NCBI GenBank assembly: GCA_902591755.1
Contig: CACJBX010000001.1
Coordinates: forward strand, 221,001 to 285,000
Direction: 5' to 3'
DNA: 64,000 nt
Origin: an uncultured Pelagibacteraceae bacterium
Lineage (GTDB): Bacteria; Pseudomonadota; Alphaproteobacteria; Pelagibacterales; Pelagibacteraceae
In this document: positions 60,836-64,000 of the stretch, piece after piece
Layout of the letters: each line of letters begins with the position of its first letter
How positions within the stretch are numbered: position 1 is the stretch's first letter
The notes under the pieces: model-generated
Databases searched by the model: none
What the model saw: only the letters and a program-made list of their open reading frames with translations
Told to the model about the DNA's origin: nothing
Translations under genes and position numbers: made by a program

Positions 60836-61648
60836 ATGTTTAATAAAAAATTTATGTTAATTTTCAATACTCTAATTGGTTTAATCACTATTTATGTAAT
60901 TATTTGTTTGGTAATTTTTCTGTCGCAGAGAAAATTATTATATCATCCTAACGAAAATAATTATTTAGACGAGAACAAACTGACACATAAGATTGAAAAG
61001 GTGTTCGTTGAGTCAGATAATAAATTAATTGGTTGGCACCATTTTAAAGACAGGAAATATAAGACATTATTATTTTTTCATGGGAATGCAGGAAATCTAC
61101 AAAATAGAATTTACAAATTAAACGAGATAGCCGAACTAGATGTAAATTATCTAATTATCGCTTACAGAGGTTTTAGTGGAAATGAGGGAAAACCCACAGA
61201 GGAAGGTTTGTACAATGATTCAATGGCAGCGAAAAAGTGGTTAAATTCAAACAACATTGGTGATAACAATATCATTCTTTATGGAGAATCTCTAGGAACA
61301 GCTGTTGCAGTGGACCTTGGTTCTAAATTTCCATTTGCTGGAATAATCTTAGAGTCTCCTTTTACTTCAATGGTAGAACTTTCAAAAATTTATTATCCTT
61401 ATTTACCAGTGAACTTACTGTTGAAAGATAAATATGATTCCATTAATAAAATTACCAAAATAGCTTTTCCCAAACTGGTTATGCACGGAGATAAAGACAA
61501 CATTGTTCCATTTAGAATGGGAAAAAGAATGTTTGAAAGTTTTTCAGAACCAAAATTTAGTTATTTTAAGTCAGGCGATGATCATATGATGGATTTTGAC
61601 CAAGAACTTTTAGGGAATATAAAAAATTTTATTAATGAATTAAATTGA
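60836..61648 (+). CDS. Alpha/beta hydrolase (BEM46-like)
   Basis: The 270-residue serine hydrolase has an N-terminal membrane anchor (about 8-27), the oxyanion-loop LFFHGNAGNLQNR near residue 77, the nucleophile elbow ILYGESLGTAVAVDLG near residue 140 (G-E-S-L-G), LESPFTSM near residue 168, the catalytic Asp in VMHGDKDNIVPFRMG near residue 212 and His in GDDHMMDFD near residue 250. BEM46-like hydrolases are membrane-anchored and of unknown substrate. It overlaps the convergent ftsY by 9 bp. Confidence 0.92.
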   Translation: MFNKKFMLIFNTLIGLITIYVIICLVIFLSQRKLLYHPNENNYLDENKLTHKIEKVFVESDNKLIGWHHFKDRKYKTLLFFHGNAGNLQNRIYKLNEIAELDVNYLIIAYRGFSGNEGKPTEEGLYNDSMAAKKWLNSNNIGDNNIILYGESLGTAVAVDLGSKFPFAGIILESPFTSMVELSKIYYPYLPVNLLLKDKYDSINKITKIAFPKLVMHGDKDNIVPFRMGKRMFESFSEPKFSYFKSGDDHMMDFDQELLGNIKNFINELN

Positions 61649-62569
61649 TTTTTCTAAACTTAAAAAATTTTCTGCAAAAGTTTCAGCATCAAAAGATTGT
61701 AAATCGTCCTCTTTTTCGCCAAGACCAATTGCAATTATTGGAAGTTTAAATTTTTTTGCAGCAGCAATTAGTATTCCTCCTTTTGCGGTTCCATCAAGTT
61801 TTGTCATGACAAGGCCAGTTAAAGGGATAATATTATTAAATTCTGTTACTTGATTTATTACATTTTGTCCTGAGGTTGCATCCAAAATTAGAACAACATC
61901 ATGAGGCGCATTGTTATCAACTTTTTTAACTACATTTGCAATTTTTTTATACTCATCCATCAAGTTTTTCTTGTTCTGCAATCTACCAGCGGTATCTATC
62001 AAAACTGTATGAATTTTATTTTTTTTTGAATATTCCATTGCTTTAAAAGCGACAGACGCAGGATCACTTCCTGCCTCTGATTTTATTATTTCACTTCCAA
62101 CTTTTTTTGACCAGTTTTCTAATTGATCTATTGCTGCAGCTCTAAATGTGTCACAAGCAGCTAGCACTGTTTTATTATTATTATTTTGAAATATTTTAGA
62201 CATTTTCCCAATTGTGGTTGTTTTTCCTACTCCATTGACACCTGAAACTAAAATTGTTCTATTATCATTGGATTGATGAAAAAAATTTTTATTTTCTAAA
62301 GGTTTCATTAATGAGAGAATATATTCTTTAAGAATTTTGTTAATCTCATCCAATTTATTTTTACTTGGATCAATTCTGCTATTAGCTATTTGCTGTCTAA
62401 TCTCTGATGAAGCCTCAATCCCAACGTCTGATTGAATTAAAAATTCCTCAATTTCTTCTAAAGTTTTATCGTCAATTTCTTTGTTAACTACAATATCTTT
62501 TATACCTTTTGAAAAATTTGACGTAGTTTTTTTTAAGCCATCCTTAAATTTTTGAAAAATATTAATCAT
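61640..62569 (-). CDS. ftsY: Signal recognition particle receptor FtsY
   Basis: FtsY is the GTPase docking partner of Ffh at the membrane. The 309-residue product is the compact NG-domain form without a long acidic A domain: N domain with IEEFLIQSDVGIEAS, then G motifs VSGVNGVGKTTTIGKM (G1, near residue 112), CDTFRAAAIDQL (I-box), LIDTAGRLQNKKNLMDE (G3), MTKLDGTAKGG (G4) and GLGEKEDDLQSF near the end. It shares 4 bp with dapF at its start, and the Ffh partner gene lies just beyond dapF on the other strand, so both SRP proteins are in one locus. Confidence 0.97.
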   Translation of the reverse strand: MINIFQKFKDGLKKTTSNFSKGIKDIVVNKEIDDKTLEEIEEFLIQSDVGIEASSEIRQQIANSRIDPSKNKLDEINKILKEYILSLMKPLENKNFFHQSNDNRTILVSGVNGVGKTTTIGKMSKIFQNNNNKTVLAACDTFRAAAIDQLENWSKKVGSEIIKSEAGSDPASVAFKAMEYSKKNKIHTVLIDTAGRLQNKKNLMDEYKKIANVVKKVDNNAPHDVVLILDATSGQNVINQVTEFNNIIPLTGLVMTKLDGTAKGGILIAAAKKFKLPIIAIGLGEKEDDLQSFDAETFAENFLSLEKSI

Positions 62570-63378
62570 ATATTTATTTTAATATGTTCAATTTCTGAGA
62601 CTGAACCTTCCATAATAATGTTTCCTTGTTCATCTTTATTGATTTTAATTTTTCCTAATTTAAATTCTATTTCAGTTGGAAATTTTGAAATACCATTAAT
62701 TTCACCAGCTACAGCAGTTGCACATGCTGCAGTTCCACATGCTTTTGTAAGACCAGCTCCTCTTTCCCAGTGCAATACTTTAAAATGATTTTTACTTTTC
62801 TCTTTTGCAAAAGTAACATTAACTTTTTCAGGAAATAGTTCATGATTTTCTAAGATCGGTCCAACTTTTTTAATTTCGATCTTTTCTAGTTCGTTTATAA
62901 AAAAAATAATGTGAGGATTTCCAACATTAATTGCTGTCCCTAAAAACTCAATATCACCAACCATAACTTTTATTTTTTTTGTATCAATTTTCTTGTTAAG
63001 AGGTATTTGATCCCAATTAGTTTTTGGTTTTCCAATATTTGTTTGAATCAAATTATTTTTTAATATTTTCGACTCTAGTTTTCCTGAAGAAGTTTCAACA
63101 GTAATAAAGTTTTTTGAACTTTCTTTTGATAACAAGCTAGCTACACATCTAGTTCCATTTCCACATGCTGAGGAATCCGAGCCATCTGAATTTTTAAAAG
63201 TTAAAAATGCATCAAATTTATCACTTTTATTTATAAGAATTAGTTGATCACAACCAATATTGCCTCTGTCACAAATTTTTTTTATTTGAGAATTGTTTAG
63301 ATCATATTTTTTTTCACGTTGATCAATTATGACGAAGTCATTTCCAAGACCATCCATTTTATAAGCTTTAAAATCCAT
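62566..63378 (-). CDS. dapF: Diaminopimelate epimerase
   Basis: DapF converts LL- to meso-diaminopimelate for lysine and peptidoglycan. The 270-residue enzyme has two catalytic cysteines: SSACGNGTRCVASLL near residue 73 and TKACGTAACATAVAGE near residue 216, plus YKMDGLGNDFVIID at the start and DQLILINKS. It overlaps ftsY by 4 bp. Its start faces the ffh gene, with a 157-bp spacer that carries a structured RNA on the opposite strand. Confidence 0.97.
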   Translation of the reverse strand: MDFKAYKMDGLGNDFVIIDQREKKYDLNNSQIKKICDRGNIGCDQLILINKSDKFDAFLTFKNSDGSDSSACGNGTRCVASLLSKESSKNFITVETSSGKLESKILKNNLIQTNIGKPKTNWDQIPLNKKIDTKKIKVMVGDIEFLGTAINVGNPHIIFFINELEKIEIKKVGPILENHELFPEKVNVTFAKEKSKNHFKVLHWERGAGLTKACGTAACATAVAGEINGISKFPTEIEFKLGKIKINKDEQGNIIMEGSVSEIEHIKINI

Positions 63379-63400
63379 ATAATAATACTTAACTTATTTA

Positions 63401-63426
63401 TTGACTTTTTGAACCTCTATTATAGT
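63401..63426 (+). promoter_or_regulatory. Weak promoter candidate for ffh
   Basis: TTGACT (63401-63406) and TATAGT (63421-63426) lie in the right order before the structured leader, but the 14-nt spacer is short of the usual 17. Transcription starting near 63432 would include the whole leader element. Other -10-like AT stretches are present, so this is tentative. Confidence 0.35.
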
Positions 63427-63434
63427 TTCTCACA

Positions 63435-63531
63435 TCTTCCGCAAAAACAGCATTTTGCGGTGTCTTTGGAAACAAAGAGATCGACACCAGTCAGCGAGGG
63501 TTCGCCCACTGGTGCGATTGCTGCTGGAAGA
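63435..63531 (+). ncRNA. Compact structured leader RNA of ffh (candidate cis-regulatory RNA)
   Basis: The 97-nt sequence folds by eye into a closed multi-helix element. P1: TCTTCC (63435-63440) with GGAAGA (63526-63531). P2: GCAAAA (63441-63446) with TTTTGC (63453-63458). P3: TCTTTG (63463-63468) with CAAAGA (63473-63478), capped by GAAA. P4: ATCG-A-CACCAGT (63480-63491) with ACTGGTGCGAT (63508-63518), with one bulged A and an inner GGG-TTCG-CCC cap. The P2 loop bases CAGCA (63448-63452) can pair with TGCTG (63519-63523), a pseudoknot. P1 contains the GGAAG Shine-Dalgarno of ffh (ATG at 63536). P1 competes with an extended P2 (C39-C40 with G59-G60), suggesting a switch. A Pelagibacter RNA motif named after ffh exists as far as I recall; I could not check identity. 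Confidence 0.75.
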
Positions 63532-63535
63532 AATT

Positions 63536-64000
63536 ATGTTTGAAAATTTGACAAATAAATTCGAGGGAATACTCGATACATTTAAAAAGGCGCCATCTCT
63601 AAATGAAAAACAGGTTGATGAGGGTCTTAAGCTAATTAGACAAGCTTTATTAGAGGCAGATGTATCGCTAGAGGTAGTAAAAGACTTCGTAACAAAAGTT
63701 AAACCAAAATTATTAGGAAAAGAAATAATAAGATCCACAGCTCCAGGACAAATGGTTGTTAAAATTGTTCACGATGAGCTTGTCTCATTTTTAGGTGATA
63801 GCAATCAAGAAATTAATTTAAAGTCTAATCCACCGGTAACAATAATGATGGTTGGTTTACAAGGTTCAGGAAAAACAACCACAACTGCAAAACTCTCAAA
63901 ATTTTTAGAAAAAAATAATAAGAAAAAAATTATGATGGTAAGTTTAGATATTTATAGACCAGCTGCTCAGGAACAACTAAAAATTTTGGGTGAACAAAAT
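63536..64000 (+). CDS. ffh: Signal recognition particle protein Ffh, N-terminal part (cut by window edge)
   Basis: Ffh binds SRP RNA and signal sequences and is the GTPase partner of FtsY. The frame from the ATG at 63536 runs to the window edge (155 residues). It shows the N domain MFENLTNKFEGILDTFKK, LIRQALLEADVSLEVVKDFV near residue 35, and the G domain start IMMVGLQGSGKTTTTAKL near residue 104 with the P-loop, then VSLDIYRPAAQEQL (I-box). The GGAAG Shine-Dalgarno is in the closing helix of the upstream structured RNA. The C-terminal M domain is outside the window. Confidence 0.97.
   Translation, partial: MFENLTNKFEGILDTFKKAPSLNEKQVDEGLKLIRQALLEADVSLEVVKDFVTKVKPKLLGKEIIRSTAPGQMVVKIVHDELVSFLGDSNQEINLKSNPPVTIMMVGLQGSGKTTTTAKLSKFLEKNNKKKIMMVSLDIYRPAAQEQLKILGEQN

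Follow-up and report, generated by a model that had tools for sequence, protein, structure and literature searches.

The ffh leader and its known motif

The window (the whole stretch of 64,000 nucleotides that was analyzed, from an uncultured Pelagibacteraceae bacterium) ends within ffh, the gene for the protein of the signal recognition particle (SRP). Upstream of ffh is a leader for which a preliminary description, made from the sequence alone, had proposed four helices (P1 to P4), and on the other side of this leader lie the divergent dapF gene and, adjoining dapF, the SRP receptor gene ftsY. The genes and features are listed by window position.

61640..62569, minus strand: ftsY, SRP receptor gene, adjoining dapF (TIGR00064, 320 bits)
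62566..63378, minus strand: dapF, divergent neighbor of the leader (TIGR00652)
63435..63531, plus strand: whole structured leader, its extent that of the preliminary description, its 3' end at the Shine-Dalgarno sequence (fold z -3.6)
63435..63440, plus strand: 5' strand of P1, pairing with 63526-63531 (64.2% of alignment cells paired)
63439..63460, plus strand: P2 hairpin, CCGCAAAA/UUUUGCGG, 63439-63446 with 63453-63460
63458..63483, plus strand: P3 hairpin, 63458-63468 with 63473-63483, with one G·G mismatch and a GAAA loop; unpaired in the Rfam model
63470..63522, plus strand: match to RF01793 (ffh) in an Rfam scan, 58.3 bits (gathering score 35)
63485..63514, plus strand: P4 hairpin, made up of 7 bp, C•C (63492/63507), A·C (63493/63506) and 4 bp
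63523..63527, plus strand: GYUGG-type box, 9-13 nt past P4, overlapping the Shine-Dalgarno sequence in the window
63526..63531, plus strand: 3' strand of P1, carrying the Shine-Dalgarno-like GGAAG
63536..64000, plus strand: 5' part of ffh, with its ATG at 63536, running off the window (Pfam SRP54_N and SRP54; TIGR00959)

Beyond the end of the window the gene row of this genome continues, reading ffh-rpsP-trmD-rplS-leuC (locus L388), with no rimM found between its rpsP and trmD genes. The SRP RNA of the same genome (G000:C1:53415-53513, locus L002) scores 38.6 bits, just under the Rfam cut-off of 40, so that annotation at the cut-off would miss it.

The 97-nt leader folds at -39.0 kcal/mol, compared with a mean of -26.2 kcal/mol for dinucleotide shuffles (z -3.6; 1 of 200 shuffles was as good), and its 3' end lies just ahead of the ATG, at the ffh ribosome-binding site, as had been described. 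Note that the minus strand of the leader folds at least as well (z -5.6). From the sequence one might guess that the 5' end at 63435 lies near a transcription start; a simple promoter scan gave a single plus-strand promoter-like site, at 63358-63386, which is no more than chance would give.

The element is not new. It is Rfam family RF01793, the "ffh" motif of Meyer et al. 2009 (PMC2704228): it scores over the curated cut-off, has the bulged, covarying hairpin with two conserved cytosines, and lies upstream of ffh. The preliminary description had allowed that such a motif may already be described, and it is indeed present both in Rfam and in print. As Meyer et al. portray it in their account of the motif, it is one bulged hairpin upstream of ffh, with two bulge cytosines in nearly every example, found in all then fully sequenced Rhodobacterales, Sphingomonadales and Rhizobiales and absent from Rhodospirillales and Caulobacterales; its function was left open, with regulation of ffh considered possible (PMC2704228). 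The bulged hairpin of RF01793 corresponds to P4, and its two conserved cytosines form the C•C mismatch. Where the Rfam model pairs P4 alone, the model presented here adds P3 and, in Pelagibacterales, P2.

Comparative support for the helices

Pairing was assessed in 65 distinct Pelagibacterales leaders and in a class-wide alignment of 80 diverse sequences. The latter came from 88 sequences selected by clustering, eight of which, mostly shortened matches (L136, L153, L162, L177, L184, L187, L201 and L202), were dropped by hand before aligning, so the 80-sequence alignment leans towards good matches.

P4 is the best supported helix, with 100% of cells paired in the Pelagibacterales leaders and 99.7% class-wide, where 10 of its 11 pairs show two-sided changes. 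The class-wide count of two-sided cells was 128, compared with 36 in shuffles (none of 500 shuffles was as high, in a control that makes no correction for relatedness), and sliding the partner strand out of register brought pairing under 50%. The preliminary description had drawn P4 as 11 bp with a single bulged A; comparison replaces this with 7 bp, the C•C mismatch, an A·C and 4 bp. In the 80-row alignment the 3' C of the mismatch is invariant (80/80) and the 5' C is present in at least 90% of rows; among 248 sequences there were 238 C•C and 10 U•C, as counted with a locating script that favored C. The conserved cap is GCGA-loop-UCGC, in which GCG/CGC is nearly invariant class-wide.

In the Pelagibacterales leaders P3 is 97.4% paired, and six of its nine counted pairs have two-sided changes (the outermost pair, 63458/63483, was uncounted). 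Its 3' end is 1 nt before P4 in the window. In a simple hairpin test against shuffles, P3 was significant at 5% in 15 of 41 Pelagibacterales sequences, 7 of 12 from the PS1 clade and 50 of 195 others; outside the aligned Pelagibacterales, its basis is inspection. Of the tetraloop caps proposed earlier, GAAA does close P3 in the window and recurs as GNAA among close relatives, and the UUCG type gives way to the P4 cap described above. P2 is paired in 83.8-86.5% of cells in the 65 leaders, with two-sided changes at two pairs, and the bases of its outer pairs can form P1 or P3 instead.

P1 had been proposed to sequester the Shine-Dalgarno sequence. In the Shine-Dalgarno register just 64.2% of its cells are paired in the 65 leaders, the register is not conserved, and two of its pairs form in just 22 and 27 of the 65 leaders (the latter being the C-G pair at columns 11/101). 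The two ends of the leader are more complementary within sequences than across them (mean -6.44 compared with -5.53 +/- 0.25 kcal/mol for 69 distinct end pairs; 0 of 5000 permutations), in a test that has no relatedness correction and in which the register shifts between sequences. We therefore retained P1 over the Shine-Dalgarno sequence for a subset of Pelagibacterales and rejected it as a general switch; P2, P3 and P4 are the members of the four-helix proposal that comparison backs. The exclusive states that had been suggested are possible in the comparative model, in which C39-C40 belong both to P1 and to a longer form of P2, and C58-G60 can pair in either P2 or P3. The claim that the leader of ffh holds a conserved, structured RNA is borne out.

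Neither P2 nor P3 is constant in sequence or length, as would suit a general 5' stabilizer or a ribosome stand-by structure that has no specific ligand. We regard this as the least probable of the readings considered, given that the near-invariant C•C, the nearly invariant GCG/CGC and the box, for which each of the three lineage groups gave a majority consensus (GCTGG, GTTGG and GTTTGG), point to specific recognition across the class.

Transcription attenuation, or the production of a small RNA, would ask something else of P4, namely that together with a U-rich stretch it end or pause transcription, with a switch in the nascent RNA setting read-through into the row. Rfam classes RF01793 as an sRNA, transcripts of the motif were seen in small-RNA metatranscriptomes according to its original account (PMC2704228), and in Mesorhizobium a feature bearing RF01793's Rfam name was predicted and mapped by RNA-seq (PMC5596092). 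Outside SAR11 and PS1, 84 of 195 sequences have TTTT within 10 nt past P4, and attenuation could operate in those lineages; among Pelagibacterales sequences just 3 of 41 have it and among PS1 sequences 3 of 12, so that the stable hairpin with a direct U-run of an intrinsic terminator is not what characterizes the lineage of the window. The stem, moreover, has mismatches, and the sole plus-strand terminator-like site in 63300-63700 is P2. As an account of the element, attenuation appears improbable.

Distribution and gene context of the element

RF01793 was found in 97 of 121 genomes of the window's genus, 175 of 197 of its order and 106 of 385 of its class, and in none of the 14 control genomes. 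A broader covariance model, R1, built from the 80 aligned sequences, matches the window at 63452-63531 with 68.4 bits and, at E <=0.001, finds the element in 223 of the 385 Alphaproteobacteria genomes. In 398 genomes of the phylum (the split of which into class and non-class members is not stated) R1 gave 98 matches, all in the window's class or nearer. Among 80 named loci of the gene for ribosomal protein S16 (rpsP), R1 matches 76 at E <=1, of which 71 are at E <=0.001; those with a match include Sphingomonas, Microvirga, Rhodovulum, Roseibium, Parvibaculum, Rhodothalassium and one of three Robiginitomaculum loci. In the 39 genomes found by R1 and missed by RF01793, together with a second match in genome G304, ffh follows the element in 40 of 40 cases.

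We asked which of the sought genes comes first past the element at 329 loci. It is ffh at 308 and rpsP at 19, with a contig end at the other 2 and no other gene among those sought. (Note that the 329 loci include some genomes twice. Outside them are L002, L204-L214, L295, L301, L305, L307, L308 and L310-L340, the named loci with partial or weak R1 matches, L236, L245, L253, L266, L271 and L279, and the named loci with no match, L229, L240, L247 and L267.) At 270 of the 308 ffh-first loci rpsP follows as well; 37 of the other 38 have <=1.5 kb of downstream sequence, and one (L177) has more. Outside the PS1 clade, where the sequence reaches, the order downstream of the element is ffh, then rpsP, trmD and rplS, with ffh first at 308 of 310 loci and a contig end at the remaining 2.

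These counts bear on the strand of the element. A minus-strand leader of dapF was considered and rejected: dapF was found within 1.5 kb at just 31 of 203 "other" loci, whereas 327 of 329 loci have ffh or rpsP next. Moreover, wobbles at the ten counted P4 pairs favor the plus strand, with 94 G·U compared with 7 A·C. The pair beside the C•C mismatch (63493/63506 in the window) behaves in the opposite way, with 116 A·C and 13 G·U among 248 sequences (C-G, G-C and U-A also occur), and would thus read as minus-strand wobbles, unlike the rest of P4.

Two R1 matches each were present in G304, G533 and G648; the second copy in G304 (L380) also precedes ffh-rpsP and is perhaps contamination. Contigs of Pelagibacterales often start or stop ~1.65-1.85 kb downstream of the element, just past ffh (L090, L091, L100, L108, L118, L120, L121 and L122 are examples), and such an edge occurs even in the single-contig genomes G012 and G123.

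An order that keeps the element and lacks a detectable ffh

All 19 rpsP-first loci belong to a single family, the only representative in the sample of its order, the PS1/OCS116 clade (genomes G346, G470, G565, G641 and G678-G691; loci L143 and L215-L219). They comprise all 14 numbered genomes of the order that have the element and five named records, at least two of which duplicate numbered genomes; the named members are from the PS1 clade and the OCS116 cluster, with one labeled Hyphomicrobiales. The element is thus present in 14 of 18 genomes of the order, directly upstream of rpsP in all 14, and is missing from four, one of which (G678) is 96% complete. At L216, dapF, the element and rpsP-rimM-trmD-rplS-leuC are contiguous and ffh is absent; because the row is contiguous in the named records, the missing ffh there is no accident of assembly. 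Beyond dapF at L216 there follow genes for an MtaB-type radical-SAM protein, a thioredoxin-type protein and aconitase B, and in the named PS1 records ftsY is not adjacent to dapF. In Parvibaculum (L220) and Tepidicaulis (L225), ftsY lies ~1.5 kb beyond dapF, and among the flanks of eight named loci outside PS1 it was present in three.

A search for SRP54-type GTPase genes gave none over the cut-off in the 18 PS1-order genomes, six of which are at least 90% complete; it detected such a gene in each of the 14 control genomes and in all three of the other Alphaproteobacteria genomes tried. (The sole weak SRP54 row, in G680, at 20.5 bits, is an adenylylsulphate kinase, Pfam APS_kinase, 219.5 bits.) SRP RNA was found by an RF00169 search in 0 of 4 PS1 genomes; since the same search missed it in one of three other alphaproteobacteria, its absence from PS1 is weak evidence on its own. 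These findings point to an apparent loss of the whole SRP from the PS1/OCS116 order. A limited literature search gave no published report of such a loss, and one account describes the SRP as a system conserved across all of life (PMC7844537).

In 12 distinct PS1 sequences all 132 of 132 P4 cells are paired and two pairs have changed on both sides. Note that the pattern used to locate most PS1 copies prescribes the P4 tip and the two mismatch cytosines, so the outer helix alone is an independent test of pairing there. P3 is re-formed with other letters. Between divergent PS1 pairs, identity is 0.77 in the element and 0.74 in the upstream flank, and with so small a difference the argument from PS1 rests on pairing rather than on identity. 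Given these values and the four genomes that have no element, the element could persist in PS1 merely as a promoter-proximal leader.

Feedback on ffh by its own product or by SRP RNA, suggested in the preliminary description and earlier in print, would have free Ffh or SRP RNA bind the leader and repress ffh; on this reading the PS1 element would be a relic or have changed its partner. The position of the element ahead of ffh at nearly every locus outside PS1 (308/310) is what such feedback predicts, and there are known cases of RNA-binding proteins whose genes carry cis elements, as the account of the ffh motif points out (PMC2704228). Against it, the PS1 order keeps the element, with P4 fully paired and with neither an Ffh nor an FtsY gene found, and the placing of PS1 copies before rpsP argues against Ffh as the ligand. 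Nor was a mimic of the 4.5S binding site found: the same account sees no resemblance between the motif and the bound part of 4.5S RNA (PMC2704228), R1 gives <=8.4 bits on three SRP-RNA loci and no listed match on L002, and the Rfam scan of 63300-63700 gave no SRP family at E <=10, on which grounds mimicry of SRP RNA was rejected. With SRP54-type genes in 0 of 18 PS1-order genomes and the element in 14 of 18, feedback by Ffh or SRP RNA is unsupported as a general function, and we consider it quite unlikely.

A candidate ribosomal-protein leader of the rpsP row

The constant partner of the element is the rpsP row, not ffh. Because PS1 keeps a paired element before rpsP where no ffh was found, we read the element as a ribosomal-protein leader of the rpsP-rplS row, with S16 (RpsP) the most likely ligand and its binding a prediction; we put the probability of this reading at about one half. 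The element has the conserved, covarying structure expected in the 5' leader of a row that encodes ribosomal proteins, and its tie to a ribosomal-protein gene is independent of ffh, as seen in PS1, and partly of rimM. Specifically, no rimM turned up between rpsP and trmD in one PS1 subgroup, at L219 (where 95 nt separate the open frames) and at L296-L299; together with its absence from this place in the window's genome, this argues that RimM is not needed.

S16 was chosen because in PS1 it is rpsP that comes straight after the leader. A protein encoded in the row, most likely S16, would bind the P3 and P4 hairpins together with the near-invariant C•C mismatch, and the bound protein would reduce translation of the row that encodes it, acting by way of the GYUGG box, which in the window overlaps the Shine-Dalgarno sequence. 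An exchange between P1 and P2 that frees or masks the box would be a feature of Pelagibacterales at most. We infer the binding of a protein, the choice of S16 over L19 or TrmD, and the effect on translation. No convincing look-alike was found in E. coli rRNA: R1 gave at best 9.9 bits, on the minus strand, against E. coli 16S and 23S rRNA, and a scan of E. coli rRNA for the C•C helix gave scattered partners only. Some ribosomal-protein leaders resemble the rRNA site of their protein, but such a likeness is no requirement.

The ligand might instead be L19 or TrmD of the same row. The trmD gene, and rplS where the sequence reaches, are kept with the element in PS1 rows, as this would require; both genes are farther from the leader than the S16 gene, to which the leader is directly joined in PS1. 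We think either unlikely, and note that the argument from proximity is limited, the nearest gene being a poor guide to the ligand according to the discussion of such leaders by Eckert et al. 2020, who also point out that the ligands of all known cases are products of regulated genes (PMC7247131). The same authors proposed an S16 leader before rpsP-rimM in Flavobacteria (PMC7247131). That candidate and the PS1 element are both structured leaders directly before rpsP(-rimM); the Flavobacteria are a different phylum, and the likeness is one of description, as given in that paper, rather than of alignment. An L19 leader motif is mentioned there too (PMC7247131).

The Rfam scan of the region (63300-63700) gave no ribosomal-leader family. 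That includes the leader of an rplS gene from another phylum, the L19 leader of Firmicutes, which we take to be RF00556.

Implications

RF01793 carries the name of a gene that, by present evidence, need not be its partner. We propose, tentatively and at somewhat less than even odds, that the "ffh" RNA is misnamed and is an Alphaproteobacteria-wide S16 leader that ties the gene for the SRP protein to ribosome production, as unmasked by the PS1/OCS116 order, which would have discarded Ffh, FtsY and SRP RNA and retained the leader, with rpsP directly behind it. The name of the motif and the feedback supposed for it are likely wrong, and a ribosomal-protein leader serves better as a working model; what the element controls is likely the production of ribosomal components, not secretion. 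The PS1 loci turn a function left open into a direct test, that of S16, L19, TrmD or Ffh on one short RNA. A bacterial order that has no detectable SRP would, moreover, be an exception to a system that has been called universal (PMC7844537). If the leader answers to a ribosomal protein, then many alphaproteobacteria would set the output of their SRP protein by ribosome supply.
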